Below are positions 1-20,618 of a stretch of DNA of 43,848 nucleotides, in pieces. Where the stretch lies: positions 1 through 43,848 of the forward strand of contig JALRJE010000010.1 of NCBI GenBank assembly GCA_023268965.1, written 5' to 3'. Both the position numbers and the translations under genes were made by a program. Source of the stretch: Crocinitomicaceae bacterium. Its GTDB lineage: Bacteria > Bacteroidota > Bacteroidia > Flavobacteriales_D > Crocinitomicaceae. The notes under the pieces were generated by a model. That model was not told where the DNA came from. It was given only the letters and a program-made list of their open reading frames with translations, and made no database searches. The stretch's first letter is position 1. Each line of letters opens with the position of its first letter.

Positions 1-1
1 G

Positions 2-91
2 GACCTATTCGTCAAGATCGCAACTGGGGCAAACATCGCCTCTGCTGCGGCAGATGCCGATGCGGCAATTGAAGAAATCCTGAACAGGTAA
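2..91 (+). CDS. C-terminus of a sugar ABC transporter solute-binding protein (partial)
   Basis: Frame 2 of the first bases is open from the window edge to a TAA at 89-91. It encodes 29 residues, an alanine- and glutamate-rich tail (...ADADAAIEEILNR). Tails of this kind end family 1 extracellular sugar-binding proteins, where the last helix packs on the C-terminal lobe. The position directly upstream of two sugar permeases fits the usual binding protein-permease-permease order. The substrate cannot be read from this fragment; the nag genes downstream suggest an amino-sugar oligomer. The assignment rests on tail composition and context only. Confidence 0.6.
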   Translation, partial: DLFVKIATGANIASAAADADAAIEEILNR

Positions 92-101
92 GAAATGATA
101 G

Positions 102-137
102 AGGCGGTAGGGTCCAATTAGCGGGCCCTACCGCCTT
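102..137 (+). terminator. Strong intercistronic hairpin between binding protein and permease genes
   Basis: An 11-bp perfect stem (AGGCGGTAGGG at 102-112, CCCTACCGCCT at 126-136) encloses a 13-base loop and is followed by TCTTC rather than a clean T-run. It begins 10 bases after the binding-protein stop. Such hairpins often stabilise the upstream binding-protein mRNA or partly terminate transcription, so that the binding protein is made in excess over the permeases. The stem is seen directly; the function is inferred. Confidence 0.65.
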
Positions 138-157
138 CTTCAAGTCAGCGAAGAGAC

Positions 158-1048
158 ATGAAAAGACTAAAGAGCCTCGGCCCATGGGCAATGCTTTTCC
201 CGGCCATAGCGGTACTAGCTGCCGTTATCGGTTGGCCTTTGATCAATTTGGTCATCATGTCTACCCAGGAGTACGGACGGGCCCAAGTATTTGGTGCCCC
301 AGCGCCTTTTGTAGGCCTGGACAACTTCGTTTATGTGCTCCAAGACGACAAGTTTTGGGCGGTCTTCAACAGAAGTGTTCTCTTCGCCGCAGTCAATGTT
401 GTGTTGACAATGACACTGGGCACATTGGTCGCCCTTGCGATGTTTCAGATGAGCAAAGCGCTTCGATACCTCGTTCAGGCAGGACTTCTGGTCGCCTGGG
501 CAATGCCTCAGTTAACTGCTGTGATTGTCTGGGGCTGGATGTTCAACACGGAATATGGGGTTATTAACTACTCGCTCACAGAGTTTTTTGGTCTTGACTA
601 CCTAGGACACTCCTGGTTCGCGGAACCCCTTAGTTTTTTTGCGGTGGCGACAATAATCATTACTTGGCAATCCGTCCCATTTGTCGCTTTCACCATTTAC
701 GCGGGTCTAACCCAAATCCCAAATGAGGTGCGTGAGGCAGCAATGCTTGACGGAGCTTCTGCAACACAGAGGTTTGTAAACCTCACAGTCCCCTACCTGA
801 GGCCTGTGTTTGCAATCGTGATTACTTTGCAGATTATTTGGGATCTTCGAGTGTTCACTCAGATTTATGCGCTGCAGGGGCTTGGTGGGCTACGCGAACT
901 GACTTCCACGTTAGGTGTCTACATTTACAACGTCTCGCTGGGTAGCGGAGACTACGGAATGGGCGGCGCAATATCTCTGATCATGGTGGTGCTGATGTCT
1001 GCGCTTTCGTTCTATTACGTGAGACGAACCATAAAGGAGGCCGCGTAA
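158..1048 (+). CDS. Sugar ABC transporter permease (MalF/DasB-type)
   Basis: This 296-residue inner-membrane protein has about six hydrophobic segments. The first, near residues 10-35, is a signal-anchor-like helix after a basic MKRLK start. The binding-protein-dependent permease EAA loop is visible at residues 193-200 (EAAMLDGA); this loop docks on the ATPase. Length and layout fit the MalF-like permease of CUT1 carbohydrate importers. It follows the binding-protein gene and a hairpin, and its TAA overlaps the next ATG (TAATG), so the two permeases are translationally coupled and should form a heterodimer. No ATPase gene is in view, as in actinobacterial systems that share one MsiK-like ATPase. 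Uptake of GlcNAc or chitooligosaccharide is inferred from the nag genes downstream. Confidence 0.9.
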   Translation: MKRLKSLGPWAMLFPAIAVLAAVIGWPLINLVIMSTQEYGRAQVFGAPAPFVGLDNFVYVLQDDKFWAVFNRSVLFAAVNVVLTMTLGTLVALAMFQMSKALRYLVQAGLLVAWAMPQLTAVIVWGWMFNTEYGVINYSLTEFFGLDYLGHSWFAEPLSFFAVATIIITWQSVPFVAFTIYAGLTQIPNEVREAAMLDGASATQRFVNLTVPYLRPVFAIVITLQIIWDLRVFTQIYALQGLGGLRELTSTLGVYIYNVSLGSGDYGMGGAISLIMVVLMSALSFYYVRRTIKEAA

Positions 1049-1890
1049 TGCTTAGAAAGCGCTTGTTGAAGGCCTCCTTAGCGGCATTCGCCGTGGTCGT
1101 TTTCCTAATGTCAGTTTTCCCGGTTTATTGGATGCTAAACACAGCATTCACTCCAAATGGCTTGACCAGGCAACAAACCCCAAGCTTTTTCCCTGTGAAT
1201 TTCACCTTGGAAAACTTTGAAACTGTTTTATTCGACGAGCAGCAAACCCCTTTTATCCCCGCCCTAATTAATTCACTGTCAATTACCTTGCTAACTGTGA
1301 CCTTTGCCTTGGCTTTCGCTTTCTTGTCGGCGATAGCCTTGGCAAGGTTTCAGTTCATTGGAAGAAAGACCTTCCTAGTCCTAATTCTTTTGATTCAGAT
1401 GATTCCCGGCGAGGCAATGATCATCTCCATCTTTAGGGTCGTAAACGATGTCAACCTGCTTAACACCATCCTTGGACTGACCATCGTTTACGTTGCAACC
1501 GTGCTGCCATTTACTATCTGGATGCTCAGGGGATTTGTAGCAGGTGTTCCTCAAGAGCTGGAGGAAGCAGCTATGGTCGATGGCTGCACTCGTCAGCAGG
1601 CCTTTAGAAGAATCACGCTACCCCTCTTGGCGCCTGGCCTAGTCGCAACAGGAGTATTTGGTTTTATCCAAGCCTGGAATGAATTCCTGCTTGCACTTGT
1701 GATCAACGGTCGGCCCGAGATGATGACACTGCCTGTTTGGCTTCGTACCTACCAGCAAGTTAGTAGTGAGACAGATTGGGCAGCAATTATGGCGGGCTCA
1801 GTTCTCATGACAATTCCGGTTTTGATTTTCTTCATGATTGTTCAGGGGCGAATGACATCGGGCTTGGTTGCAGGGGCGGTGAAAGGTTGA
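1048..1890 (+). CDS. Sugar ABC transporter permease (MalG/DasC-type)
   Basis: This 280-residue membrane protein is the second permease of the importer. An N-terminal helix (about residues 10-30) ends in the FPVYWMLNTAF stretch typical of MalG-family proteins. The EAA loop is at residues 172-180 (EEAAMVDGC). About six membrane spans can be read. The ATG overlaps the preceding stop by one base. The TGA at 1888-1890 overlaps a probable TTG start of nagZ, so the gene sits in the middle of a tightly coupled operon. Family assignment is firm; the transported sugar is inferred from neighbours. Confidence 0.9.
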   Translation: MLRKRLLKASLAAFAVVVFLMSVFPVYWMLNTAFTPNGLTRQQTPSFFPVNFTLENFETVLFDEQQTPFIPALINSLSITLLTVTFALAFAFLSAIALARFQFIGRKTFLVLILLIQMIPGEAMIISIFRVVNDVNLLNTILGLTIVYVATVLPFTIWMLRGFVAGVPQELEEAAMVDGCTRQQAFRRITLPLLAPGLVATGVFGFIQAWNEFLLALVINGRPEMMTLPVWLRTYQQVSSETDWAAIMAGSVLMTIPVLIFFMIVQGRMTSGLVAGAVKG

Positions 1891-3248
1891 CGCACTCTAT
1901 TTTGTCGCGACTCATGATTGGCATCCAAGGCCAGCAAATTCCGTCTTGGCTCCCAGAACTCAGCGCTAGGGGCCTGAAGAGCGTTTGTATTTATGGCGAG
2001 AATGTCGATTCTGAGGAGCAACTGACTGGCTTCGTGTCCGAACTTCGTGAGGTGCTTGGTCCCGAGGCAATAATCGCAATTGACGAGGAAGGTGGCGAAG
2101 TTACCAGGGTTGATTACCGATCCGGCAGCAGGTTTGCTGGGAACGGATACCTCGGGCGGCTTGGGGACCCTGAGATTACTGCTAGGGATGGCAGATTGAT
2201 CGCTGAGCTCCTGGCTCGATTAGGAGTAAACCTAAACCTCGCGCCTGTAGCAGACGTGAACATAGAACCGACCAATCCGGTAATCGGCATCAGGAGCTTT
2301 GGTGCGGATCAGGAGATGGTTGCAAAGCACACTGCAGAATTTGTGACAGCTCATGAAGGCGTCGGGGTTGGAACAACACTGAAACACTTTCCGGGTCACG
2401 GCAACACAGTTTCAGATTCGCACACCTCTCTTCCAAAAATAACTGGGGGCTTGAAAGAACTGATGGCGACTCAGTTCAAGCCATTTGAGTCCGGCATCGC
2501 AGCCGGCGCATCGGCAGTGATGCTGGCCCACCTGGATATCGGCCTCGCGGCACCTAGTTCACTTTCGCAGGAGGTTGTAAATCTTCTCCGAGGCCCAATG
2601 GGTTTCCAGGGCTTGATAATCACCGATGCGCTTGACATGGGCGCACTAGGGCATAGAAGTCAGTTGCCAAGTAATGCTATTAGGGCAATGCTGATTGGAG
2701 TCGACCTGATCTGCCTTGGGCCACGAACTACCCTGGAAGAAATTCTTGAGATAGAGACACTTGCCGAAAACCTACGAGTTGCTGAGTTACAGAACTCTGA
2801 CGAGAGCCTTCAGCGCATTAAGCATTTCGCGAACCGTGTTCCAAGAGGGGCCAAAGAGGTCATGCCGCATTATCCCCAGCTAGAAACAGATGTGGATTTT
2901 GTGACACCAATCCGAATAATCCGCTTTTTGGGTGAGTCCAATGCTGCGATCGGCGAAGTCCCTTGGTACGGGGAGATAGTTGCAGATTATGAGGTCCGAA
3001 CCCCTGAAGAGCTTTCCGAGAGGTTGTCATTGGAGACACAGAACGTAGTTCTGTTTCGTAACGCTCGACAAATGGAAGAAGCTCTCTCGCGCCTAACCGA
3101 AGAACTACTAGAAACCGTTGTCCCATTTGTTCCAGATCTAAGCACACAGTGGGCCGGAAAAGCCCACGTTACCTATGGGAGCGCCAGACCCCAGACCAAA
3201 GTACTGAGAGCGCTCTTGCAAGAAAGGCGGCATTCAAATGTCAAATAG
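1887..3248 (+). CDS. nagZ: Glycoside hydrolase family 3 beta-N-acetylhexosaminidase (NagZ-like)
   Basis: The protein removes terminal beta-N-acetylglucosamine from chitooligosaccharides or muropeptide sugars. Counted from the TTG at 1887 it has 453 residues. KHFPGHGNT at about 166-174 followed by DSH (His near 179) is the NagZ flexible-loop signature carrying the Asp-His general acid/base pair. ITDALDM has the nucleophile aspartate near 247. A further ~120-residue domain of unclear role follows the barrel. The frame is open upstream to 1776, inside the permease gene, so that longer start is unlikely. TTG 1887 overlaps the permease stop and follows a purine-rich AGGGG; ATG 1914 is the alternative. 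No signal peptide is visible, so it is probably cytoplasmic and acts on imported oligomers. The symbol is by family. Confidence 0.87.
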   Translation: MTHSILSRLMIGIQGQQIPSWLPELSARGLKSVCIYGENVDSEEQLTGFVSELREVLGPEAIIAIDEEGGEVTRVDYRSGSRFAGNGYLGRLGDPEITARDGRLIAELLARLGVNLNLAPVADVNIEPTNPVIGIRSFGADQEMVAKHTAEFVTAHEGVGVGTTLKHFPGHGNTVSDSHTSLPKITGGLKELMATQFKPFESGIAAGASAVMLAHLDIGLAAPSSLSQEVVNLLRGPMGFQGLIITDALDMGALGHRSQLPSNAIRAMLIGVDLICLGPRTTLEEILEIETLAENLRVAELQNSDESLQRIKHFANRVPRGAKEVMPHYPQLETDVDFVTPIRIIRFLGESNAAIGEVPWYGEIVADYEVRTPEELSERLSLETQNVVLFRNARQMEEALSRLTEELLETVVPFVPDLSTQWAGKAHVTYGSARPQTKVLRALLQERRHSNVK

Positions 3249-4122
3249 ACCGGTGCAGGTTGGAGTCGATCTTGGGGGTACAAAAGTGCATTCCGTGGTG
3301 CTTGGAGAGGATCTTCAAATACTCTCCGAGGACACCAGACTCAGTGGTTTTGGCCCTGAAGAGGTTATGCAGAACCTAAGGGAATCCATTTCAGACGCAT
3401 TGTCTTTTTTGTCGCACATCGCAGTCACCTCAATAGGCATAGGCACACCTGGAACCGTCGACGTTAGGACTGGGATTGTGCGACATTCCTTGAACCTGGG
3501 CATCCAATCGCTGGATCTAAGAACGCCAATCTCTGGTTTGTTTGAGTGCTCGGTCCAGGTTGAGAACGACGTTAATGCCACGGCACTTGGCTTGACGAGG
3601 CTTTTTCCAAAGCACGAATCACTCTGCTACTTGAACTTCGGAACGGGGTTAGCAGCGGGATTCGTAATCAATGGTCGAGTGTGGTCAGGGGCTTCAGGGC
3701 TTGCTGGAGAAATCGGTCACATCCCGATTTCTGGAAAAAACAACCAGTGCAGTTGCGGACAAGCGGGATGTCTTGAATTGTTCAGCTCCTGGTCGGGCCT
3801 GCGTAAGCAGCTTCCTGGTTACGAAACCCTTACGGATGCTTTGGGAGATCGCGGCACCGTCCCCGCCGTGGCGGAGGCTTGGGAGGCCTTCATTTCGAAT
3901 GCTGTGTTGAGTATTCAGACAGTGTTTCTAACACTTGACCCTGAGGTGATCTTCATCGGCGGGGGTGTTGTTGCATCGAGCACCGAGGTTTTCGACGAAA
4001 TCGTCGCGAGGGTAGTTGATCTCGAACAGAAAGCACCTCTGTTTGCCGAAAAAGGCATCTCTAAGCGGATAGCAAGAATGCCACACAACGTTCCCGTGGC
4101 CGCGATTGGGGCTTTGGGGTAA
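3238..4122 (+). CDS. ROK family sugar kinase (probable N-acetylglucosamine kinase)
   Basis: This 294-residue cytoplasmic kinase has the ROK layout. The N-terminal phosphate-binding motif is DLGGTK (residues 11-16), the catalytic aspartate lies in VENDVNA (Asp about 111), and GEIGH (158-161) precedes the zinc cluster CSCGQAGCLE (171-180), the ROK signature. Glycine-rich IGGGV follows near the C-terminus. The ATG lies 11 bases inside nagZ, so translation is coupled. Placed between nagZ and nagB, it most likely phosphorylates the GlcNAc released by NagZ to GlcNAc-6-phosphate. Glucokinase or ManNAc kinase activity cannot be excluded from sequence alone. ROK repressors carry an N-terminal helix-turn-helix, which is absent here. 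Confidence 0.85.
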   Translation: MSNRPVQVGVDLGGTKVHSVVLGEDLQILSEDTRLSGFGPEEVMQNLRESISDALSFLSHIAVTSIGIGTPGTVDVRTGIVRHSLNLGIQSLDLRTPISGLFECSVQVENDVNATALGLTRLFPKHESLCYLNFGTGLAAGFVINGRVWSGASGLAGEIGHIPISGKNNQCSCGQAGCLELFSSWSGLRKQLPGYETLTDALGDRGTVPAVAEAWEAFISNAVLSIQTVFLTLDPEVIFIGGGVVASSTEVFDEIVARVVDLEQKAPLFAEKGISKRIARMPHNVPVAAIGALG

Positions 4123-4125
4123 GCG

Positions 4126-4815
4126 GTGGAGCTGCGAGTATTTAACACCGCGCAAGAGGCAGCGGTGGAGGCTGCAAGCGTCATGCGGCAACAGTCAAGC
4201 TCAAGCTCGGTGTATGGCTTTGCAACTGGTAACACGCCTCTCAAAATTTACGACGAGCTTCGCAGGGGCGGCCCACTTGAAATGGCGGCAGCCTTTGCCC
4301 TCGATGAATATCTTGGTCTGGAGCCTCAGGACGAGCGTTCGTTTAACTGGTACGTAAGAAATCGCGTAGAGCCAGCTCTGGGTTTACCTACCGGGTCTAT
4401 TCGTTGCCCGAATGGTGCGGCAGAGGATCCGGAGCTGGAGGCAAGCCAGTTCGAGGCCAACATCAAGGAAAGCCCTATCGACCTACAACTATTGGGCACT
4501 GGAAGAAATGGCCACATTGCTTTCAATGAACCTGGAAGCGAAGGTGACTCGCTGACCCGCGTAGTTGAACTGCATGAGATCACCCGAGTCGATAACGGGT
4601 CAGATTTCGACGGGCTAGCACCTGAGAAAGCGATCACACAGGGTATTGCGACGATCCTCAGGGCCAAAAAACTGCTTTTGGTAGCAACCGGCGAATCTAA
4701 GTCAGAGCCGATTAGAAAGCTTTTGGCGGGGAAAGTAGATACTCAGTGGCCGTTGACGCACTTGGTGGACCATCCAAATTTGGTGGTTCTAGTTGACCGT
4801 GCTGCCATGGATTAG
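4126..4815 (+). CDS. nagB: Glucosamine-6-phosphate deaminase
   Basis: The enzyme converts glucosamine-6-phosphate to fructose-6-phosphate and ammonia, the last step of amino-sugar catabolism. The 229 residues include ATGNTP (33-38, phosphate loop), LDEY (59-62) with the conserved Asp-Glu, and GTGRNGHIAFNEP (124-136), the family signature with the catalytic His. At 229 residues it resembles the shorter monomeric type (B. subtilis NagB-like) rather than the 266-residue allosteric E. coli enzyme. The start is a GTG four bases after the kinase stop. Its 3' end overlaps convergent nagA by 27 bases. Confidence 0.92.
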   Translation: MELRVFNTAQEAAVEAASVMRQQSSSSSVYGFATGNTPLKIYDELRRGGPLEMAAAFALDEYLGLEPQDERSFNWYVRNRVEPALGLPTGSIRCPNGAAEDPELEASQFEANIKESPIDLQLLGTGRNGHIAFNEPGSEGDSLTRVVELHEITRVDNGSDFDGLAPEKAITQGIATILRAKKLLLVATGESKSEPIRKLLAGKVDTQWPLTHLVDHPNLVVLVDRAAMD

Positions 4816-5877
4816 TCGCCCGTCTCTATAAACCTCAAGGGGTTCAAACTCGTCCCAAAGCACCAGGTCGGCCGTTCCACCTACTTTGATTTGGTGATTC
4901 TTGAGGCCATAGGCGTTAGCAGGCCGGGTGCTTGCTGCGGCCAGCGCAACATCTTCGGCAAGCCCCCAGGAAACACAGTTTTTTACGGCCTGGTTGAGAG
5001 TCAATGTTGAACCAGCGAGTGCTTGATTATCAGTTCTCCGGGCAACTCCCGATTGGACTTTGACGCCCACGCCTCCAAGTTCAAGCTCAATGTCCCCGAG
5101 CCCGGCAGCGGCAATGCTGTCAGTAACGAGGATTGCCTTGTTTGTCATGGCAAACAGTCCAACAACCGTTGCTGGATGCAGGTGGTTACCGTCGGCGATT
5201 ATCTCTACGTAGGCATCAGCTTTTATTGCCGCGCCAAGTGGTCCTGGAGACCTCGATTCGAATCGAGGCATTGCATTCAGAGCGTGGGTAAGGATGCGAG
5301 CACCGGCTCCAAAATACTTGAGTGACAACTCATAGTCGGCATCAGTGTGGCCGATGGCAACCAAGACTCTCTTGGCCAGACCCACGGTTTGCTCGAGCGT
5401 TACTTGTTCAGGTGCGATTGTGATTGAGCTCAGAGAGTCAAATTGCAAAACCTTCTCGAGTTCTGAGTCGGCCGCTGGACGTAATTCTCCAATTGCGTGA
5501 GCCCCACATCTCGACTCGGAAAGATACGGGCCTTCAAGGTGAACGCCAATTAGCCCAGATGACTGGGGAACTCCACTGGCTGCTTGAAGAACGGCGATCA
5601 TTTCATCTAGAGGTGAGCTCACAAGGGAGACAATGGTGCGTGTAACGCCATAGCGGGCGGCTGCCTCGGTGATTGAAACGAGATCGTCAGCTTTTGCTGA
5701 CACAGAAAAGCCGTCCAAGCCATGCATGTGAGTGTCGATCAGCCCCAATGACAGAATTGGAAGCTCGGAAGCCGTTTCAATGTCAGTAATCGAAACTATT
5801 CGTTCATTAAATTCGACTCGTATCGATTTGGAGCCATCAGAGCTAGGGAGCCTACCCTCTATGAATTTCGTCTCCAC
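4789..5877 (-). CDS. nagA: N-acetylglucosamine-6-phosphate deacetylase
   Basis: The enzyme hydrolyses GlcNAc-6-phosphate to glucosamine-6-phosphate and acetate, feeding NagB. The 362 residues form an amidohydrolase TIM barrel: HMH (50-52) opens the metal site, HLEGP (113-117) carries the metal-binding Glu, GHT (176-178) and HALNAM (198-203) supply histidines and substrate contacts, and TDS (252-254) holds the catalytic Asp. The start is a GTG. It is transcribed against nagB, and the two genes overlap tail to tail. The esterase stop lies 12 bases upstream on the same strand, so the native actinobacterial genome may co-transcribe esterase and nagA. Confidence 0.93.
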   Translation of the reverse strand: METKFIEGRLPSSDGSKSIRVEFNERIVSITDIETASELPILSLGLIDTHMHGLDGFSVSAKADDLVSITEAAARYGVTRTIVSLVSSPLDEMIAVLQAASGVPQSSGLIGVHLEGPYLSESRCGAHAIGELRPAADSELEKVLQFDSLSSITIAPEQVTLEQTVGLAKRVLVAIGHTDADYELSLKYFGAGARILTHALNAMPRFESRSPGPLGAAIKADAYVEIIADGNHLHPATVVGLFAMTNKAILVTDSIAAAGLGDIELELGGVGVKVQSGVARRTDNQALAGSTLTLNQAVKNCVSWGLAEDVALAAASTRPANAYGLKNHQIKVGGTADLVLWDEFEPLEVYRDGRLIHGSTVN

Positions 5878-5889
5878 CTAAAGAGATTA

Positions 5890-7656
5890 TCAGCTCCGTG
5901 GCGGAGCCTGTAGCCACCAGTTCAGAGCCTCTGCCACCCTTCTAGCCCAGTAGCTCTCGTGGTGCCCAGTGTTTGGGTAGATGGCTGCAACTAGGTTCTT
6001 TGGCTCCGAGTAGCCCTTTTGCTTTACGAGCTCCACGGCTTTGTTGTGGAAGGGCGGGTAGAGCTCGTCCAATTCGATTGTCCCGCTATCGGTCCAGAGC
6101 CTGTGAGTATTGCCATCGGGCAGCATGCCGGTGAGCTGCTCAACCATCAAATCGCCCCCAAAGGGCCAGTGGGTTGAGAAACAGATGGCGGTGCCGAATA
6201 CCTCCGGACGCTTGCTCATTGCATACATGGACATAAGTCCACCCATTGAGGAGCCCATAACCGCGGTTCTCTCTGGCGAGAGCTGCAGGTCAAACTTCTC
6301 CGCTACAAATGGCAGGATCGCGTCAGCAATCAAGGACACATATGCATCACCCATCCCTGCACCGCGGTCCGCCTCATACTCGGCAGGAACGACATTCCAA
6401 ATCTCAGGGTGGGCATCTAGAACACTCTGCGGGGCTAGCTCTCTGAGCCTGGTGAAATCACTTAGTCCCCAAACCGCTACAACCACCGGGGCATTGGCCC
6501 TGACCTCGTCGCGAATTGCAGGTAACACCTCCCAGGTCTTACCAGTGAACGAGTCGCCCTCATCAAAGACGTTGCGACCATCGTGCATCACAAGCACTTT
6601 GGTGGTCGGGTTTACATCTTTTGGAACCCAAACATCGACGACGTGTTCGTCAAAGCTAAAGCGATGCAGTGAACCACCAGCCAGCCTGTTCTCCAGAATC
6701 TTCTTCTCACGGTTTGCCATGAAAAGCGGAAAAGTAAAGGCGATGGCTGTTACACCCGATGCTAGGAAGTAGAGCCAGACTCGCTTCATGCCGAGTCTTT
6801 TTGCCTCTACCAGCATGAAAACCACAACCGCCATGGCGACTACGAGTAGGTCAATTGAGAGCACCCAGTCGACAATGGTGCCAGTTGCCTTACCATTTTC
6901 TATCACAATGCGTTCTACATTGGCAGAGGTCTGAATTTGAACACCCTGCTCTTGGGCAATATGTGCAAAGGCCTTGATAAATTCGTGCATGCCCTTCATT
7001 GGATACCAGGTTCCGAGCTGGATGTCTGCATAGTTCATCAAGGAGTAGAGTGCTGGCGTTTCATTGGGCATGGCTCCCAAAAATAAGACAGGAAACTCTA
7101 GGAGTGATAAAATTTTGGGATGTTTAAAGTATTTACGAATAAAAGAGGAAAACGAAGAGAAGAGATGCATCTTGAATAAGCCTCCAAGTACTCTGCTGTC
7201 TATAAATTCAGTGAGGCTCAAGCTTGGTTTGTACACCAAATCTTCCATTCCTACTTTGTATTTGTATGCAGCGTCTTTTAAAAAGGCTTTTAAACTTTTG
7301 GCACTACCTGGCTCAAGAGATTCAAACCACTCTTCTATTTGGGACATGTTGGCCGGAACATTGGTGTAAGAATGATCGGGCCAATAAACGCGGTAAGAAG
7401 GATCTAAGCGTTTGAGCTCATAAAAATCAGCTGCGGTGTAGCCAAATTGTTGATAAAACTTTTCGAAGACATCTGGCATCCAATACCAAGATGGCCCCAT
7501 GTCAAAAGTAAAACCTGCGGTTTCGAACTGACGAGCACGCCCGCCGATGGTACTGTTCTTTTCGAAAATTTGAACTTCGTAACCTGATTTTCCTAAAAAT
7601 GAAGCGACTGAGAGGCTCGAAATTCCCGAGCCAATTACGTGTACTTTTTTTGTCAT
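5890..7656 (-). CDS. Chimeric frame: N-terminal half of a CrtI-type desaturase joined to a membrane-anchored esterase
   Basis: The 588-residue frame joins two unrelated halves. Residues 1-258 (about 6882-7656) are the N-terminal half of a Bacteroidota phytoene desaturase-like flavoprotein. A GxGxxG dinucleotide site (VIGSGISSL) and a downstream acidic residue (FEKN) bind FAD, and IGGRA and MGPSWYWMP are typical of carotenoid desaturases. Full-length relatives have about 490 residues, so the substrate and C-terminal FAD regions are missing. From about residue 260 (5890-~6880) the protein becomes two hydrophobic helices and then an alpha/beta-hydrolase of the IroE/putative-esterase type. That part has GSSMGG (nucleophile Ser about 470), a possible acid near 523 and GHHES (His about 565). 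Composition changes at the same point. Each half is probably a truncated gene from a different organism; the desaturase starts 3 bases after the sigma-factor stop. Confidence 0.8.
   Translation of the reverse strand: MTKKVHVIGSGISSLSVASFLGKSGYEVQIFEKNSTIGGRARQFETAGFTFDMGPSWYWMPDVFEKFYQQFGYTAADFYELKRLDPSYRVYWPDHSYTNVPANMSQIEEWFESLEPGSAKSLKAFLKDAAYKYKVGMEDLVYKPSLSLTEFIDSRVLGGLFKMHLFSSFSSFIRKYFKHPKILSLLEFPVLFLGAMPNETPALYSLMNYADIQLGTWYPMKGMHEFIKAFAHIAQEQGVQIQTSANVERIVIENGKATGTIVDWVLSIDLLVVAMAVVVFMLVEAKRLGMKRVWLYFLASGVTAIAFTFPLFMANREKKILENRLAGGSLHRFSFDEHVVDVWVPKDVNPTTKVLVMHDGRNVFDEGDSFTGKTWEVLPAIRDEVRANAPVVVAVWGLSDFTRLRELAPQSVLDAHPEIWNVVPAEYEADRGAGMGDAYVSLIADAILPFVAEKFDLQLSPERTAVMGSSMGGLMSMYAMSKRPEVFGTAICFSTHWPFGGDLMVEQLTGMLPDGNTHRLWTDSGTIELDELYPPFHNKAVELVKQKGYSEPKNLVAAIYPNTGHHESYWARRVAEALNWWLQAPPRS
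6870..6890. other. Chimeric junction between actinobacterial and Bacteroidota DNA
   Basis: On the minus strand the desaturase reads to GKATG (last codon about 6880-6882) and is then followed by TIVDWVLSI, the start of a hydrophobic helix foreign to the family. Left of this point genes are G+C-richer and actinobacterial in type. Right of it they are A+T-richer, with Bacteroidota families and promoters. There is no transposase, integrase, tRNA or direct repeat at the switch, which argues against a mobile-element insertion. The exact base cannot be fixed without either parent sequence. Confidence 0.8.
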
Positions 7657-7659
7657 AAA

Positions 7660-8172
7660 TTAATTTGCCGAAAATGCGAATTCCGGTAGCGCCTCCATTA
7701 GCTTTTTTCTTGCAATGAAAATCCGGCTTTTCACGGTTCCGATTGGAATACCTAGTTTGTCTGCGATCTCTTTGTATTTGAATCCTTGAAAATGCATTTC
7801 AAAAGGGGTTTGATATTCCTCTCCTAATAAGTTTATTTGTTTGTTGATGTCTTTAACACCAATTTTCTCAATAGCGCTGTCTTCGTGGCTATGGATGTTT
7901 CCGATCAAGAAAACTTCTTTACTGTGATCGAAAATGGCACCCGATTTTACTCTTCTGCGATACTGATTGATGAACAAGTTACGCATAATTGTGAAAACCC
8001 AGGCTTTGAAATTGGTCTGGGGCGTGTAATAGTTGCGATAAGTAATCGCTTTCAGCATGGTTTCTTGAGTTAAATCCCTTGCATCTTCACGGTTTCTTGT
8101 GAAAGACAATGCAAACGATTGTAAATTATTTTCTAGTCCAATTAGTGCTTCGTTGAATTCGATTGTAGACAT
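7660..8172 (-). CDS. ECF-type RNA polymerase sigma factor upstream of crtI
   Basis: This 170-residue sigma-70 family factor contains only regions 2 and 4. Region 2 includes DARDLTQETMLKA and the AWVFTIMRNLFINQYRR stretch (about residues 30-76), which contacts the -10 element and core polymerase. Region 4 is the helix-turn-helix FKYKEIADKLGIPIGTVKSR (about 130-150). It lies three bases before the desaturase start on the same strand, an arrangement known from flavobacterial carotenoid clusters, where the factor is thought to control pigment synthesis. No anti-sigma factor is beside it. Its upstream region carries several TGTTTAAC-like sites. Confidence 0.9.
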   Translation of the reverse strand: MSTIEFNEALIGLENNLQSFALSFTRNREDARDLTQETMLKAITYRNYYTPQTNFKAWVFTIMRNLFINQYRRRVKSGAIFDHSKEVFLIGNIHSHEDSAIEKIGVKDINKQINLLGEEYQTPFEMHFQGFKYKEIADKLGIPIGTVKSRIFIARKKLMEALPEFAFSAN

Positions 8173-8183
8173 GTTGAAATATT

Positions 8184-8250
8184 TTGTTTAACAATTACGA
8201 TATAAAGTTAAACATTATTTGTTTAACTAAACATGAAAAAACTTAAACAA
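8184..8250 (-). promoter_or_regulatory. Operator-like array of TGTTTAAC sites upstream of the ECF sigma-crtI operon
   Basis: At least four copies of an octamer or its complement lie within 67 bases: TTGTTTAACAA (8184-8194), AGTTAAACA (8206-8214), TGTTTAACTAAACA (8220-8233) and TTAAACAA (8243-8250). The second and third form a perfect 9-bp inverted repeat with a 5-base spacer; the third is itself a palindrome with a 2-base centre. A near match to the Bacteroidota -7 element (TAACTTTA, minus strand, 8203-8210) lies within the array, so a bound regulator would overlap the promoter. A MerR/LitR-type light regulator is a plausible partner in carotenoid clusters, but none is encoded here. Confidence 0.6.
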
Positions 8251-8288
8251 AATATATAATTTTTTTCTATGATAGCTATAGAAGAAAT

Positions 8289-9224
8289 CTATTGAATGTT
8301 TTCGAGCATCACTTCAACCATAGCTTTGGTATCAAAATGAGCTTTCCATCCCCAATCGTTTGCAGCAGCGCTATCGTCAATGGAGTTTGGCCAGCTGTCG
8401 GCAATCGTTTGTCTGAAGTCAGGCGCGTAGTCGATATTAAAATCTGGAAGGATTGTTTGAATTTCAGCTGCTAGTTCAGCGGGTGTAAAGCTGCAGCCCG
8501 CAAGGTTATAGGCCGATCTGATTTTTACTTGTTCAGATGGCGCTTCCATAAGTTCGATGGTAGCCCTAATCGCATCATCAATAAACATCATGGGTAGTGC
8601 AGTATCGGCATTTAAAAAAGAAGTGAATTTTCCTTCTGATTTAGCCTTGTAGAAAATATCAACCGCATAATCAGTGGTTCCGCCGCCAGGCAAACTCTTG
8701 TAAGAGATCAGGCCAGGGTAGCGAATACTGCGCACGTCCACGCCAAATTTGTTGTAGTAATATTCGCACCACCGCTCACCAGCTTGTTTTGAAATGCCAT
8801 AGACGGTTGTGGGTTCCATGACCGTATGTTGTGGCGTCTGATTGGCAGGTGTTGTTGGCCCAAATACGGCGATAGAACTCGGCCAGAATATTTTTTGGAG
8901 TTGCCCTTCTTTAGCCAAGTCTAGGATGGTAAATAATCCTTCCATGTTTAAGCGCCAAGCAAATTCGGGATTTTTCTCAGCTGTGGCGGAAAGCAGCGCT
9001 GCTAATAAGTAAACTTCTTTGATATTTTCACCGATAATGTAAGAGCGAACGCCTTCCTTATCGAGGGCGTCTAGTTGAACATAAGGCCCGTTATTCAGAA
9101 TAGCCGGACACGCTTCTTTGAGGTCAGCGGCTATCACCGTTTGGTTTCCAAACTTTTCGCGGAGTGCTAAAACGAGTTCGGTTCCGATTTGGCCACATGA
9201 ACCAAGTACCAATATTTTTGACAT
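8289..9224 (-). CDS. NAD-dependent epimerase/dehydratase-type L-threonine 3-dehydrogenase
   Basis: This 311-residue short-chain dehydrogenase of the extended type probably oxidises L-threonine to 2-amino-3-ketobutyrate. The N-terminal Rossmann motif is LGSCGQIG (residues 6-13), and the catalytic YGISK (Tyr-x3-Lys) lies mid-protein after the SSIAVFGP strand. The ISYKSLPGGGTTDYAVDIF segment is characteristic of the short-chain threonine dehydrogenase subgroup. The frame is open 11 codons further upstream, but the ATG at 9224 puts the Rossmann strand at the usual distance from the start. It is divergent from hmgA-hpd across about 100 bases, and a TACTTTTG element at 9246-9253 on the minus strand fits its promoter. 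A sugar-nucleotide epimerase is less likely. Confidence 0.82.
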   Translation of the reverse strand: MSKILVLGSCGQIGTELVLALREKFGNQTVIAADLKEACPAILNNGPYVQLDALDKEGVRSYIIGENIKEVYLLAALLSATAEKNPEFAWRLNMEGLFTILDLAKEGQLQKIFWPSSIAVFGPTTPANQTPQHTVMEPTTVYGISKQAGERWCEYYYNKFGVDVRSIRYPGLISYKSLPGGGTTDYAVDIFYKAKSEGKFTSFLNADTALPMMFIDDAIRATIELMEAPSEQVKIRSAYNLAGCSFTPAELAAEIQTILPDFNIDYAPDFRQTIADSWPNSIDDSAAANDWGWKAHFDTKAMVEVMLENIQ

Positions 9225-9245
9225 TGTGATGATTTGATGTTGAAA

Positions 9246-9253
9246 CAAAAGTA
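9246..9253 (-). promoter_or_regulatory. Bacteroidota -7 element for the threonine dehydrogenase gene
   Basis: The minus strand reads TACTTTTG, an exact match to TAnnTTTG, 21 bases before the ATG at 9224. No clear TTTG -33 element is seen at the expected distance, so the promoter may be weak or activated. Confidence 0.5.
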
Positions 9254-9272
9254 ACAAAACTGACCAAAATCA

Positions 9273-9303
9273 TTTGTCGAATCCTTCTAATGGATTAGTT
9301 TTG
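9273..9303 (+). promoter_or_regulatory. Bacteroidota-type promoter for hmgA-hpd
   Basis: TTTG (9273-9276) is separated by 19 bases from TAGTTTTG (9296-9303), an exact match to the Bacteroidota -33/-7 consensus TTTG-N17-23-TAnnTTTG. The hmgA ATG is at 9324, which leaves a short leader of roughly 15 bases. This is the best-formed promoter in the window. Confidence 0.75.
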
Positions 9304-9323
9304 GACTAATAAACTGAAAAATC

Positions 9324-10481
9324 ATGCCATTTTACCATAAACTCGGGGCCATTCCTCACAAGCGACACACTGTTTTTCGTCAGCCAGATGGGTCTCTCTA
9401 TCATGAGCAACTCTTTGGAACTATTGGATTTGATGGAATGTCGGCGCTCTTGTACCACGTACAACCACCCACCGTTGTGAAATCCGTTGGTGCCCAAACC
9501 AACATTGCTCCGGAAATTGGTATTCAAAAAAACATGCTGATGCGCAGTTTTAGAGGATTCGACCTCAAGCCTGCCTCAGATTATGTGGAGAGTAGGGTTC
9601 CTGTTTTGGTCAATTCTGATGTATACCTAGAACTCGCTGCGCCTTCAGAAAGCATGAAAGACTATTTCTATAAGAATGCCGATGCCGATGAAATCATTTT
9701 TATTCACAAAGGTTCAGGTAAATTGCGCACGCAAATGGGCAATATTGACTTTTCTTACGGTGACTACCTCGTCATTCCTCGGGGCATGATTTACCAGCTC
9801 GAATTCAATGATGCCAATAATCGTTTATTTATTATTCAGTCTTTTCATCCAGTTTATACACCCAAGCGCTACCGAAATTGGTTTGGTCAGTTACTCGAAC
9901 ACTCCCCATTTTGTGAGCGCGACATCCGAACTCCATCCGAACTCGAAACGCACCGCGAGGAAGGAGATTTTTTAATTCGCATTAAAAAACAAGATGTGCT
10001 CTATGACTACACCTACGCACATCATCCGTTTAACGTCGTGGGTTGGGATGGCTATAACTATCCTTATGCTTTTTCTATTCACGATTTTGAACCCATTACT
10101 GGCAGAGTGCATCAACCGCCGCCTGTGCACCAAACTTTTGAAACTTCAGCTTTTGTGGTTTGTTCATTTGTGCCTCGACTTTACGACTACCACCCAGATT
10201 CCATCCCGGCTCCTTACAATCATTCCAATATTGATTCAGACGAGGTGTTGTATTATGTAGACGGTGATTTCATGAGTCGCAATAACATCGAAAAAGGTCA
10301 GATTACCCTGCATCCAGCAGGAATTCCGCACGGCCCGCATCCCGGAACTTACGAACGCAGTATTGGCAAAAAAGAAACGGAAGAATTGGCGGTTATGGTC
10401 GATACCTTCAAGCCACTCTCCCTTACCAAACGCGCTTTAGAGATGGAATTGCCAGACTACATGTTTTCTTGGCAGCACTAA
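9324..10481 (+). CDS. hmgA: Homogentisate 1,2-dioxygenase
   Basis: The enzyme opens the ring of homogentisate to maleylacetoacetate with Fe(II) and O2 in phenylalanine/tyrosine catabolism. The 385 residues match the short bacterial form. HHPFNVVGWDGYNYP (233-247) is a conserved family block and HQPPPVHQTFE (263-273) another. Candidate iron ligands lie in PYNHSNIDSDEV (His 300, Glu 307) and IPHGPHP (His 336). A clear TTTG/TAGTTTTG promoter precedes it and hpd follows 38 bases after its stop, so the two genes probably form an operon covering consecutive steps. Fumarylacetoacetase and maleylacetoacetate isomerase are not in the window. Confidence 0.95.
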   Translation: MPFYHKLGAIPHKRHTVFRQPDGSLYHEQLFGTIGFDGMSALLYHVQPPTVVKSVGAQTNIAPEIGIQKNMLMRSFRGFDLKPASDYVESRVPVLVNSDVYLELAAPSESMKDYFYKNADADEIIFIHKGSGKLRTQMGNIDFSYGDYLVIPRGMIYQLEFNDANNRLFIIQSFHPVYTPKRYRNWFGQLLEHSPFCERDIRTPSELETHREEGDFLIRIKKQDVLYDYTYAHHPFNVVGWDGYNYPYAFSIHDFEPITGRVHQPPPVHQTFETSAFVVCSFVPRLYDYHPDSIPAPYNHSNIDSDEVLYYVDGDFMSRNNIEKGQITLHPAGIPHGPHPGTYERSIGKKETEELAVMVDTFKPLSLTKRALEMELPDYMFSWQH

Positions 10482-10519
10482 CTCGTGTATATTCCCTAAT
10501 TTTGACGAAAATCAACAAA

Positions 10520-11680
10520 ATGGAAGAAATCAAAAACTTAAAAGATATTCAAAACTACAATTACAGTCTTGAAAAAATATTCCATGACGCCGAAGACTTC
10601 CTTCCACTTTTGGGTACTGACTACGTTGAATTGTACGTCGGTAATGCCAAACAAAGTGCGCACTTTTATAAAACAGCTTTTGGCTTTCAGTCCGAGGCTT
10701 ACGCTGGGCTAGAAACAGGAATGAAAGACCGCGTGTCTTATGTTTTGAAGCAAGACAAAATTCGTTTGGTACTTACTACCCCGCTTACCGAAGGAGGCGA
10801 ACTCAATGCGCATATTGACAAGCACGGCGATGGCGTTAAGGTTGTGGCATTATGGGTAGAAGACGCCACCAAAGCTTACGAAGAAACCACGAAGCGCGGA
10901 GCAAAACCTTACATGAAACCCACGCGCGAAGAAGATGCAAACGGTTGGGTCGTACGTTCGGGTATTTACACCTACGGCGAGACCGTTCATATATTTGTGG
11001 AACGCGGGCAATACAATGGTACATTTTTACCTGGCTACAAAAAATGGGATTCACATTACAACCCAGCACCTGTTGGGCTTAAATTTATCGACCATATGGT
11101 GGGCAACGTAGGTTGGAACGAAATGAACGATTGGGTCGAGTTTTATGGAAAGGTGATGGGCTTTGCTCAAATTGTTTCTTTCGACGATAAAGATATTTCC
11201 ACAGACTACACTGCGCTGATGTCTAAAGTCATGTCAAATGGAAATGGCCGAATTAAATTCCCGATCAATGAACCAGCTGAAGGCAAGAAGAAATCGCAAA
11301 TCGAAGAATACATCGATTTTTATAACGGCCCAGGTGTACAACACATTGCCGTAGCCACCGACGATATCGTGACTACGGTATCAGCCATGCGCGACCGCGG
11401 AGTTGAGTTCTTATATGTCCCAGAAACTTATTATGATGACCTTTTAGAACGTGTAGGCGCTATAGACGAAGATGTGGAACTTCTGAAGTCTCATGGAATT
11501 CTTATTGACCGCGACGAAGAAGGCTACTTGTTACAATTATTTACCAAGCCTGTCGTTGACCGCCCAACTATGTTCTTTGAAATCATTCAAAGAAAAGGAG
11601 CGCAGTCTTTCGGGAAGGGTAATTTCAAGGCTTTGTTTGAGGCGATCGAACGCGAGCAAGAAAACCGCGGAACGCTTTAA
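10520..11680 (+). CDS. hpd: 4-Hydroxyphenylpyruvate dioxygenase
   Basis: The enzyme turns 4-hydroxyphenylpyruvate into homogentisate, the substrate of HmgA upstream. From the ATG at 10520 it has 386 residues in two vicinal-oxygen-chelate halves. Probable Fe(II) ligands are His about 192 (KFIDHMVGNV), His about 275 (GVQHIAVATDDI) and Glu about 354 (MFFEIIQRKG). The C-terminal GYLLQLFTKPVVDRPT and FGKGNFKALFEAIE blocks are diagnostic. The frame opens earlier, at 10469 inside hmgA, but the ATG at 10520 is the natural start and gives the usual length. Confidence 0.95.
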   Translation: MEEIKNLKDIQNYNYSLEKIFHDAEDFLPLLGTDYVELYVGNAKQSAHFYKTAFGFQSEAYAGLETGMKDRVSYVLKQDKIRLVLTTPLTEGGELNAHIDKHGDGVKVVALWVEDATKAYEETTKRGAKPYMKPTREEDANGWVVRSGIYTYGETVHIFVERGQYNGTFLPGYKKWDSHYNPAPVGLKFIDHMVGNVGWNEMNDWVEFYGKVMGFAQIVSFDDKDISTDYTALMSKVMSNGNGRIKFPINEPAEGKKKSQIEEYIDFYNGPGVQHIAVATDDIVTTVSAMRDRGVEFLYVPETYYDDLLERVGAIDEDVELLKSHGILIDRDEEGYLLQLFTKPVVDRPTMFFEIIQRKGAQSFGKGNFKALFEAIEREQENRGTL

Positions 11681-11688
11681 AACCTCGA

Positions 11689-12285
11689 TTACATTTCGTT
11701 GAGTAGGCATTCAAATTCATTATAAATGCCAGCTTGTTTGTCTTCGTTATATGCCTTTTGGATTTGCTCAACAATGGTAGCAATTTCAGTAATACCCTCT
11801 GCCTTGAGTCGGTTCATGACCTCTTGAATAACCGCTGGTCTTGGCCCCCAAGTAAATAGCTCTTTTCCAGTTTTATCGAGGCAAATTAATTTGGGTATAG
11901 ATCGTCCGCCATTGGTTAAATAAGCATCCATTACTTCAGGGTGTTCGTCGCGTAGCAAATATAGCGTTTGAATATTGCCGGCACTTAAGGCCAGTTTTTC
12001 AATTACCGGAACGCATTGTGCTGCATCTCCACACCAAGGTTCTGTTAGAATCACCCAGGTCCAGTTTGCCGCTTTTTCTTTTAAAAGTTCGATGACGTTT
12101 GCAGGGACTTCAATTGTCTTATTCAAGCGTTTCATTCGCTGGACATTTAGCTTGGTATAATATACGTATGCTTCAGACTGATTTGGCCCGCTGGTCCGTT
12201 CTTCTTTGACGAGGAGTGCAGATAACTGCAGGTAAGCGTCGTAAGGAATAGCTTGTGCAAGAATGCTTGAATGAATCGCTGTCAT
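11689..12285 (-). CDS. Thioredoxin-like family protein
   Basis: This 198-residue protein has a thioredoxin fold in its central and C-terminal part. TWVILTEPWCGDAAQCVPVI (about residues 80-100) resembles an active-site strand and helix, but the two cysteines are separated by four residues (CGDAAQC) instead of the CxxC of true thioredoxins. The cis-proline loop follows as SIPKLICLD. No signal peptide is visible. The ATG at 12285 is preferred to the longer start at 12312. It matches a family common in Bacteroidota annotated only as thioredoxin family protein. It is convergent with hpd, with 8 bases between the stops. The substrate is unknown. Confidence 0.75.
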   Translation of the reverse strand: MTAIHSSILAQAIPYDAYLQLSALLVKEERTSGPNQSEAYVYYTKLNVQRMKRLNKTIEVPANVIELLKEKAANWTWVILTEPWCGDAAQCVPVIEKLALSAGNIQTLYLLRDEHPEVMDAYLTNGGRSIPKLICLDKTGKELFTWGPRPAVIQEVMNRLKAEGITEIATIVEQIQKAYNEDKQAGIYNEFECLLNEM

Positions 12286-12374
12286 AATGGAATGAACAAA
12301 TATTGGACGCAAAAATACACATATAAAAATTGCATACTCAAAAAAATGGATTTTATCAATTCAAGAAGATTTTG

Positions 12375-12383
12375 TATATTTGC
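12375..12383 (+). promoter_or_regulatory. Bacteroidota -7 element for tRNA-His
   Basis: TATATTTGC matches TAnnTTTG exactly and ends 13 bases before the tRNA. Upstream, a T-rich TTTTA at 12351-12355 lies at the -33 distance but lacks the G. Confidence 0.6.
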
Positions 12384-12395
12384 ACCCACCAAAAT

Positions 12396-12470
<75 letters not shown>

Positions 12471-12477
12471 CTTTAAA

Positions 12478-12506
12478 AAATAGCCAGTAGTTTTACTGGC
12501 TATTTT
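12478..12506. terminator. Bidirectional terminator between tRNA-His and the hydrolase
   Basis: A 12-bp perfect stem (AAATAGCCAGTA, loop GTTT, TACTGGCTATTT) has T-rich flanks on both strands. It lies 8 bases after the tRNA and just beyond the hydrolase stop, so it can serve both transcripts. Confidence 0.85.
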
Positions 12507-12509
12507 CGT

Positions 12510-13328
12510 TTATAAACATTTCAAAGTCTGCTGACATAATTCTTTGAGAAGCGGAGGCAGTGTAGGTTTGTTCCAAGGATGGCTTGCGCCAAACACATGA
12601 TCAGCCCCATGTATTTCGATGACCTTTACACCTGACACCTCTTGTAATTCATAGGCTTCTGAAATAGGTACAGAAGCATCTTGGTCTCCGTGAAAAATAT
12701 GAAGGTGTTTAGCGATGTCTTTCGCTGCTGCTTTGATATCAAGTCTATGCCGATTCCTTTCAAAATTTGCATATAATTCAAAGAACTGAGGTAGATCTTG
12801 CAAGGTCCGGCTATTTTTTACGTATCGAACTCCTGATTTTTCCCATTTTTTGAGATCTTGCCCTTGAGCAAAACGCCGTTCGATATCGCAAATACCAGCC
12901 CAGGTGCATACCTGTCCGAGGGGGCTCTTTTGCTTCCATTGTTGTGCAGCCAAAATTGCCATGCCACCACCTCTAGAATGTCCTATCAGATGTATCTTTT
13001 GATAGGTCCGATGCTGTGTTTCAAGATGATCCAAAAGGGAGGAAATATCGAATGTCTCTTTTGAATAGGTATTTTTTCCGAAAGCTGCTGTATCAGGAAA
13101 ATCAATTGGATCAGTAGGCGTGCCACCATTATGAGAAAGGTTAAAGCGGCAAAAATCGTAACCCTTTTTGGTAAAAAAGTTTTGTACGAGAGGCCAAGCT
13201 CCCCAGTCCATGAATCCCATGAATCCGTGCACAAAAACAATCAGTTCTTGATGCTGTACATTTGTACTCCATTCATATAAACTTTGGCGGCCTTCAGCAC
13301 CGATGTATATATAGCGTTCGATTTCCAT
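12510..13328 (-). CDS. Alpha/beta hydrolase family protein
   Basis: The 272 residues show the alpha/beta-hydrolase order. HGFMGFMDWG (about residues 30-40) forms the oxyanion loop, GHSRGG (about 115-120) carries the nucleophile serine, FHGDQDASVP (about 212-221) the acid and GADHVFG (about 242-248) the histidine. No signal peptide or lipobox is seen, so it is probably cytoplasmic. The substrate is not predictable; dienelactone hydrolase-like or acyl-esterase activity is possible. A TTG at 13340 could add four residues, but the ATG at 13328 is preferred. The preceding zinc-ribbon gene ends 5 bases upstream on the same strand, suggesting a two-gene operon. Confidence 0.8.
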   Translation of the reverse strand: MEIERYIYIGAEGRQSLYEWSTNVQHQELIVFVHGFMGFMDWGAWPLVQNFFTKKGYDFCRFNLSHNGGTPTDPIDFPDTAAFGKNTYSKETFDISSLLDHLETQHRTYQKIHLIGHSRGGGMAILAAQQWKQKSPLGQVCTWAGICDIERRFAQGQDLKKWEKSGVRYVKNSRTLQDLPQFFELYANFERNRHRLDIKAAAKDIAKHLHIFHGDQDASVPISEAYELQEVSGVKVIEIHGADHVFGASHPWNKPTLPPLLKELCQQTLKCL

Positions 13329-13333
13329 TTTTT

Positions 13334-13702
13334 TCAACAAGCGTTATGGACTAATAACAACTGATTTTCTGACAACCGAAGGTAACCAAAATCATAACAA
13401 AAGAAGTAGAGCTGTCCATTTTTAGCTTGTTTGTGGTGGGTATGAAAATCGAAATGATAACCCTTTGCCTTCAGGTCGAGTGCTAAAATTTTTCTTCTCT
13501 TTTCAATGAGGTAGCATTTTGCTAAAATTTGCTGATTTTGCAGTAGTATTCGATTGATCTGACGTTGTTGCGCCAATTTTTTCGCGTATTTTCTATTATT
13601 GAACTGATTGCGGCATTGGTCAGCACAATATTTTTGATCGCGGCGTCCTTTGAGTGGCACTCCACATTCTTTACAATATCTATTATTTATAATTGAATCC
13701 AT
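13334..13702 (-). CDS. Small zinc-ribbon protein of unknown function
   Basis: This 122-residue basic protein starts with a cysteine cluster, CKECGVPLKGRRDQKYC-x3-C (about residues 10-30). Four cysteines probably bind zinc in a ribbon like those of DUF2116-type proteins. The rest is rich in Lys, Arg and Gln with a predicted helix (KYAKKLAQQRQINRILLQNQ), followed by an aromatic C-terminal stretch (YHFDFHTHHKQ...YFFCYDFGY). The frame is open upstream to 13780, but ATG 13702 places the first cysteine near the N-terminus. Nucleic-acid binding is a reasonable guess from charge and zinc ribbon, but no function is recognised. Confidence 0.7.
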   Translation of the reverse strand: MDSIINNRYCKECGVPLKGRRDQKYCADQCRNQFNNRKYAKKLAQQRQINRILLQNQQILAKCYLIEKRRKILALDLKAKGYHFDFHTHHKQAKNGQLYFFCYDFGYLRLSENQLLLVHNAC

Positions 13703-13915
13703 ATGAACCAAACGCAACTTCAAGGGTTCAAGGTATAGTATGCGGTTCAAGTGCAGCTTTTTTCCTAGACAGCTTGCCAAAAATCTTCATCAGTATCCGT
13801 AAAATATACAGTAGAAAGGGGCTTTTGCTCAAATCTTTGTAACGCTCGAAAAAAAAATGCGTTCAAGTCGAACCTTTCTGCAATTTATCAGTACAAGGCA
13901 TAGCAATTAAAAAAT
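13703..13915. other. Divergent intergenic region upstream of the primary sigma factor
   Basis: These 213 bases separate the divergent zinc-ribbon and rpoD genes and must hold promoters for both. I see A/T-rich sequence and several TTTG or TTTC strings but no clean TTTG-N19-TAnnTTTG pair. No RNA gene or repeat is recognisable. Confidence 0.4.
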
Positions 13916-14785
13916 ATGAGGCAGTTAAAAATCGCAAAACAGGTCACCAACAGAGAGACCGCATCTTTAGACAAGTACTTACAAGAAATTGGTCGGGTTG
14001 ATCTCATTACCGCTGATGAAGAGGTAGAGCTCGCACGAAAAATCAAAGCAGGAGATCGCCTTGCGCTCGAACGCCTAACCAAAGCCAATCTTCGTTTTGT
14101 AGTATCCGTAGCAAAACAGTACCAAAACCAAGGTTTGGCATTGCCAGATTTGATCAACGAAGGCAACTTAGGTCTAATTAAAGCCGCAGAACGTTTTGAC
14201 GAAACCAGAGGTTTTAAGTTCATTTCTTATGCCGTTTGGTGGATTCGACAGTCGATTCTTCAGGCATTGGCAGAGCAAGCGCGTATCGTGCGTCTACCTT
14301 TGAACAAAATTGGAAACATCAATAAAATCAACCGTGCTTACTCAGAACTCGAGCAAAAATTTGAGCGTCCGCCATCCGCAGACGAACTTGCTGAGTTTTT
14401 GAATGTCACGCCAGAAGAAGTAAAGCAAACGCTTTCTCAAAACGGACGTCATATTTCTATGGATGCACCTTTGATAGAAGGAGACGAATCCACGTCTACC
14501 ATGTACGACGTTATGCAAGGCGACTCTCTTCCTGGTCCTGAGGCTAACCTTACCCTAGAATCTTTGCGTTCGGATATCCGCCGTTCACTTACGAGCTTAA
14601 CTCCGCGTGAAAGCGAAGTTATTAGCATGTTCTACGGTCTTGAGGGTAAAGCACCGCTGTCTTTAGAAGAAATCGGTGATAAATTCGAACTTACCCGTGA
14701 GCGCGTGCGTCAAATCAAAGAGAAGGCCATTCGCCGCCTCAAACACACCAATAAAAATAAAGTGCTGAAAAGCTACTTAGGATAA
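13916..14785 (+). CDS. rpoD: Primary RNA polymerase sigma factor RpoD (SigA), short Bacteroidota form
   Basis: This sigma-70 of 289 residues directs transcription from housekeeping promoters. It lacks the long region 1.1 and non-conserved insert of E. coli RpoD, as is usual for the Bacteroidota primary factor. Region 1.2/2 begins [36 protein letters not shown] and [15 protein letters not shown] form regions 2.1-2.4, region 3 includes [18 protein letters not shown], and region 4 ends with [19 protein letters not shown] (helix-turn-helix). This factor should recognise the TAnnTTTG elements seen throughout the right part of the window. It stands alone, with a terminator directly downstream. Confidence 0.95.
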
Positions 14786-14790
14786 ATATC

Positions 14791-14816
14791 AAAAGGAACC
14801 GAAAGGTTCCTTTTTT
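14791..14816. terminator. Bidirectional terminator between rpoD and priA
   Basis: AAAGGAACC-GAAA-GGTTCCTTT forms a 9-bp stem with a GNRA-like loop. It is followed by a T-run on the plus strand and preceded by A residues that serve the minus strand. It lies between the convergent rpoD and priA stops. Confidence 0.9.
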
Positions 14817-14819
14817 GTT

Positions 14820-18446: not shown

Positions 18447-18464
18447 GGTCTAAGGTAAGAAATT

Positions 18465-19397: not shown

Positions 19398-19409
19398 AGG
19401 GTGCTGGGT

Positions 19410-20009: not shown

Positions 20010-20113
20010 TAGATGTAAAAACGCGAATTTACCGAAAAAAGCGAGTTTTTTCACCCTTTGAAATAAATAAATTACTCGAAACAAAATAACCGATGCTGCG
20101 TATAAATGCCCCT

Positions 20114-20584: not shown

Positions 20585-20606
20585 CAATCTTCTGCCAAAA
20601 GCGTTG

Positions 20607-20615
20607 TATCTTTGC
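20607..20615 (+). promoter_or_regulatory. Bacteroidota -7 element almost touching the lysA start
   Basis: TATCTTTGC matches TAnnTTTG and ends only 3 bases before the lysA ATG at 20619. Transcription would begin at or a few bases around the start codon, giving a leaderless or nearly leaderless mRNA. Confidence 0.55.
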
Positions 20616-20618
20616 ACC

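Follow-up and report, generated by a model that had tools for sequence, protein, structure and literature searches.

An apparent desaturase-esterase fusion in a Crocinitomicaceae genome is almost certainly a chimeric contig

Introduction

Contigs or molecules that combine fragments of different origin are known from metagenome-derived and amplified genomes. The cited sections of the GUNC paper describe chimeric contigs that arise in MAGs through wrong assembly, while calling misassemblies relatively rare, and state that estimates from marker genes pick up non-redundant contamination less readily (PMC8201837). Chimeras formed in MDA, as presented in the cited part of a study of such molecules, were joined over 2-21 complementary bases; they were formed within one E. 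coli genome and were mostly intramolecular inversions (PMC1855051). The contig analysed here resembles the systems of these sections in its differing sources within one contig, its low marker contamination and joins of short complementarity (PMC8201837, PMC1855051). It differs from the MDA chimeras of the cited part in that those came from one E. coli genome and were mostly inversions (PMC1855051), and the comparison does not fix the kind of artefact here.

The two gene families that meet in this contig are each known in complete form. The CrtI family (TIGR02734 / NF058655) has an intact member in the sister genome of the organism studied, whereas the gene on our contig breaks off and gives way to unrelated DNA. 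The DUF2834-esterase has a complete homologue of 372 aa in an Aquiluna MAG (locus L026, gene 9875-10993); the gene on our contig is 89% identical to it in amino acids over 330 compared residues and is short of about 45 N-terminal residues.

The window is the whole of contig C15 (43,848 nucleotides) of genome G000, an assembly of 2,047,096 bases in 127 contigs with stated values of 94.99% completeness and 0.07% contamination. It contains a 588-aa open reading frame on the minus strand (5890-7656) that stays open over the join described below. The features are collected in Table 1.

Table 1. Features around the join in the window
Feature	Position	Strand	Evidence
Putative foreign Aquiluna-like block: two ABC permeases, GH3, ROK, glucosamine-6-P isomerase-like, amidohydrolase (NagA-like), DUF2834-esterase without N-terminus	1..6871		Pfam, Aquiluna loci, tetranucleotides
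DUF2834-esterase gene, first ~45 residues missing	5890..6871	-	89% aa identity to Aquiluna L026
Junction, almost certainly artificial	6871..6872		Exact C6 match ends at 6872; actinobacterial alignment ends
crtI (phytoene desaturase family), residues 1-261; rest on C6 up to C6:900	6872..7656	-	97.7% aa to G069 residues 1-261
69 crtI bases common to C15 and C6:147-215, true overlap of neighbouring contigs	6872..6940	-	Exact match; contiguous in G069
ECF-type sigma factor, directly upstream of crtI	7660..8172	-	Pfam Sigma70_r2/r4_2

Results

Two truncated genes share one open frame

A sequence-only reading of the window had reported an in-frame switch from a carotenoid desaturase to an esterase, and the domain scans together with the open 588-aa frame confirm it. 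Pfam places the desaturase-type domains exclusively within residues ~1-275 and the DUF2834 and esterase domains from residue 265 on. When the two parts were searched separately, as that reading had advised, residues 1-258 matched the crtI-family models TIGR02734 and NF058655 only up to profile position 251-253 of 478-504, and the esterase part, the one with 89% identity to Aquiluna, matched DUF2834 only from profile position 43-44 of 96. Since the former models stop in mid-profile and the latter starts in mid-profile, both genes are truncated at the join, and neither domain is complete as it would be in a natural fusion. The crtI gene has lost about 228 C-terminal residues on this contig. The loss from the esterase is put at about 45 residues because the stretch compared begins after 42 codons of the L026 gene, and the first four residues of that stretch overlap crtI. 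A natural desaturase-esterase fusion enzyme was considered as a candidate and rejected, as both genes are truncated.

The last base identical to the true continuation of crtI, found on contig C6, is 6872, which sets the join between 6871 and 6872, with a leeway of a few bases common to both sides. Alignments of 14 actinobacterial loci to the window end at 6870-6882 in 12 cases and at 6819 in 2, and the right-side alignments of six loci from the genus of G000 each end at 6871-6886. The position proposed earlier (6870-6890, around 6880) was thus within 10 bases of the join, but the desaturase extends to residue 261 and not, as had been stated, to 258.

The remainder of crtI lies on another contig

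Contig C6 (14,920 bases) carries at C6:147-215 an exact copy of window bases 6940-6872. The bases that follow, C6:216-900, encode the remainder of crtI, so that the true continuation of the gene (C6:147-900) is present elsewhere in the same assembly. Beyond the stop codon C6 carries genes of the squalene/phytoene synthase, NUDIX, PTPS, photolyase and AhpC-TSA families; the first is named by its Pfam family, no NCBIfam phytoene synthase model having been matched at cut-off.

The order of the two contigs is given by the sister genome G069 (2.2 Mb, 10 contigs; 93-97% nucleotide identity). The alignment of window bases 6872-20585 to it, at 93.0%, reaches locus position 14634, and that of C6 149-4594 to the same contig, at 94.8%, begins at 14568, such that the two matches adjoin and overlap by 67 bases. 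Spanning them is an intact crtI of 489 aa, which scores above the NCBIfam cut-offs of NF058655 and TIGR02734. Residues 1-261 of the window gene are 97.7% identical to this protein in amino acids, and the C6 part is 97.2% identical to its residues 240-489. Elsewhere in this otherwise colinear stretch, about 1.2 kb of the window (20586-21817), holding most of a 409-aa ORF (20604-21833), is without a counterpart in G069.

More distant relatives likewise have the site intact and the join absent. Six loci of the same genus, out of the 8 best matches outside G000, align with the right side of the window at 75-82% over ~8-9 kb, in one or two pieces, and all six also align with C6 from position 147-163 onward, colinear on both sides (6/6). 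One relative, L107, has a 170-aa ORF (10007-10519) beside its 489-aa crtI ORF, in the same place as the sigma factor of the window.

We surveyed crtI in 61 genomes, namely G000 and 60 others of the same genus. Among the matches listed, 58 of the 60 had some match. In 57 there was a desaturase match of 52-96% identity, which lay in a frame of 478-509 aa in 55 genomes and was cut off by the start of a contig in 2; G016 had only a 25% paralogue for the desaturase half, and G055 and G067 had no match. Also among the matches listed, none of the 60 genomes combined the two halves in one row, the longest N-terminal match reached residue 295 (in G012), and matches to the esterase half, at 21-35% identity, lay in separate places. 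Bases 6872-43848 appear to belong to the genome of a Bacteroidota-like bacterium of a genus other than that of the left block. The Bacteroidota placement comes from the sequence-only reading and from general features, and contig C106 hints at it through short DNA matches to loci of Flavobacteriaceae.

The left block resembles Aquiluna

For the esterase half we kept 80 of 162 relatives found, comprising 14 actinobacterial loci at 46-89% identity and 66 Bacteroidota loci at 29-35%. The left 6871 bases had no match elsewhere in G000, and none in 60 of 60 other same-genus genomes with at most 4 candidates scored per genome. A DNA search of the block in 13 actinobacterial genomes (those of the 14 loci, with L029 left out) did not find its donor; all matches fell in the esterase region 5895-6870, except one of 51 bases in G081.

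Bases 1-5877 read as an N-acetylglucosamine-type cluster of two ABC permeases, a GH3 protein, a ROK protein, a sugar-phosphate isomerase and a NagA-like protein, which the esterase adjoins. NagA relatives were found in 3 of the 13 actinobacterial genomes, at only 39-42% identity. When the left-block proteins were compared with seven loci by tblastn, one actinobacterial locus, L130, held permease (41%), ROK (26%) and NagA (39%) matches together. Composition and these weak protein matches, which form the basis, hint at an actinobacterial origin of 1-5877. None of the 13 actinobacterial genomes showed this cluster arranged beside the esterase when searched, and there may therefore be another join near 5880. 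As a whole, bases 1-6871 appear to come from an Aquiluna-like actinobacterium.

Composition changes at the join

The drop in G+C to the right of the junction, noted in the sequence-only reading, is borne out by 1-kb bins, which range from 0.475 to 0.543 up to base 7000 and from 0.379 to 0.464 thereafter. Mean G+C is 52% in 1-6871 versus ~42% in 6872-43848, and the likelihood change point within 1-14000 falls at 7078, some 200 bases right of the join. The comparison of tetranucleotides on the two sides, which had been proposed as a check, gave an Aquiluna-like left side and a right side like its own genus. In raw counts, 1-6871 correlates with five Aquiluna loci at r 0.80-0.87 versus 0.29-0.38 with five right-hand pieces of the window, and the piece 6872-13742 correlates with four loci of its own genus at 0.86-0.94. 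Correcting for base composition reduces the contrast (0.83-0.88 versus 0.61-0.70). The two sides of the join thus carry the signatures of different taxa.

The head of C6 and other odd contig ends

The first 146 bases of C6 are also unrelated to crtI. They have 36% G+C and are phage-like, with 48 residues at 83% amino acid identity to one IMG/VR contig, IMGVR_UViG_3300047476_001839, to which 125 of the 146 bases are identical. At the C6 join this viral relative and crtI both have the 11 bases TCAAATTCAGA. No match to C6:1-146 was found elsewhere in G000, in 149 other genomes of the family, in Pfam or in phage records, nor in the 13 actinobacterial genomes, a search run without a positive control.

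Exact overlaps of at least 31 bases were sought among 23 of the 127 contigs, most of them over part of their length: C15, C6, C106 and 20 others, the last represented by their starts. Three pairs were found: C15/C6 (69 bases), C106/C12 (54) and C1/C11 (78). In the second pair, C106 1-525 and C12 1-121 have an internal 54-base overlap with diverging heads, like C15 and C6; G069 shows C106 (from 472) and C12 (from 47) to be neighbours, the 54 shared bases being a single place. The head of C106 (1-471; 30% G+C) encodes a DNA polymerase III delta-type domain and matched nothing in G069 or in the rest of G000; on C12 the unrelated head measures no more than 67 bases.

Two further observations concern other contig ends. 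The 78-base exact overlap of the third pair lies at C1 1-78, and 152 further bases of C11 diverge from C1. Bases 1-4000 of C3 have a G+C of 0.28-0.33 versus 0.40-0.47 in the next 4 kb, perhaps a foreign end or an island.

Discussion

We conclude that C15 is almost certainly a chimera, an artefact of chimeric molecules or of misassembly. Assembly or library chimerism had been the simplest explanation offered from the sequence, and it is supported by the rest of crtI on C6 with its 69-base overlap, by the contiguity of the two contigs in G069, by the lack of any match to the left block in the 60 other same-genus genomes and by the similar fault at C106/C12. According to this explanation, Aquiluna-like DNA (1-6871) would have been joined to Bacteroidota-like DNA (6872-43848) inside crtI, and the join would by chance have kept the frame open, giving the apparent 588-aa fusion. 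The real crtI runs on into C6 through the 69-base overlap, and the squalene/phytoene synthase-family gene comes after it.

As to the kind of artefact, the evidence leans weakly towards a chimeric DNA molecule, arisen in amplification or ligation, rather than an event purely in the assembler, because the microhomology is short (11 bases where C6 is joined, going by the phage relative) and the overlaps are unequal (69 and 54). A purely computational misassembly, in which the assembler crosses a stretch common to two genomes, is a sub-case of the artefact and not an additional explanation, and we regard it as possible but somewhat doubtful. In its favour, the assembly is fragmented (127 contigs) and there is more than one place where a contig end departs from its neighbour, but the joined partners appear to share little, namely 11 bases at C6 and, at the C15 join, only the 'GT' common to all sequences compared, and the contig overlaps vary in length. 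Shared stretches this short are below the usual assembly k-mer sizes, and for the 11 bases of microhomology at C6 chimeric molecules are a better fit than a k-mer repeat.

A real strain-specific insertion into crtI, bordered by a direct repeat of 69 bases and with the Aquiluna-like block (on C15) and the phage-like piece (on C6) as its ends, is very improbable. The geometry fits, with the N-terminal part of crtI, the shared 69 bases and foreign DNA on one contig and foreign DNA, the shared 69 bases and the C-terminal part on the other. However, the two ends are unlike both in source and in composition (actinobacterial with 52% G+C, phage-like with 36%), a like geometry is seen again at C106/C12 with different foreign pieces, and the left block is unmatched in 60 of 60 other same-genus genomes. 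In addition, no integrase, transposase or other mobility family was found by Pfam in the 7 left-block ORFs scanned, which cover one strand, and a target duplication of 69 bases is outside the usual transposon range.

Least credible of all is a recent horizontal transfer of an actinobacterial block of at least 6.9 kb into G000 at crtI, for which contiguity in the contig is the only argument, whereas the break in both genes coincides exactly with the join, the continuation of crtI is present in the same assembly, the border has no mobility family in the scanned ORFs and no tRNA or Rfam RNA nearby (the single tRNA of the window is at 12397), and the 69 bases repeated on C6 are a contig overlap. 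This alternative, raised in the sequence-only reading, is not needed.

The low stated contamination counts against a chimeric contig, but this is tempered because marker-based estimates are, according to the cited sections of the GUNC paper, less sensitive when the contamination is non-redundant (PMC8201837). Also weighing against it are the relative rarity of misassemblies stated there, the predominance of inversions among the MDA chimeras (PMC1855051) and the failure to find the 1-5877 cluster next to the esterase in the 13 actinobacterial genomes. With the chimera supported, the earlier advice to withhold any claim of synteny across the join, or of a desaturase-esterase enzyme, was right. 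There is no desaturase-esterase enzyme and no transfer here, and nothing novel is left in the fused feature.

For the organism, the finding is a data-quality flag only. Neither the 588-aa fusion nor the first 6.9 kb of the contig should be assigned to G000, and C15/C6 and C106/C12 are contig pairs to be handled as neighbours whose ends are false. Chimeric contig ends can thus coexist with a contamination that is stated as 0.07%.
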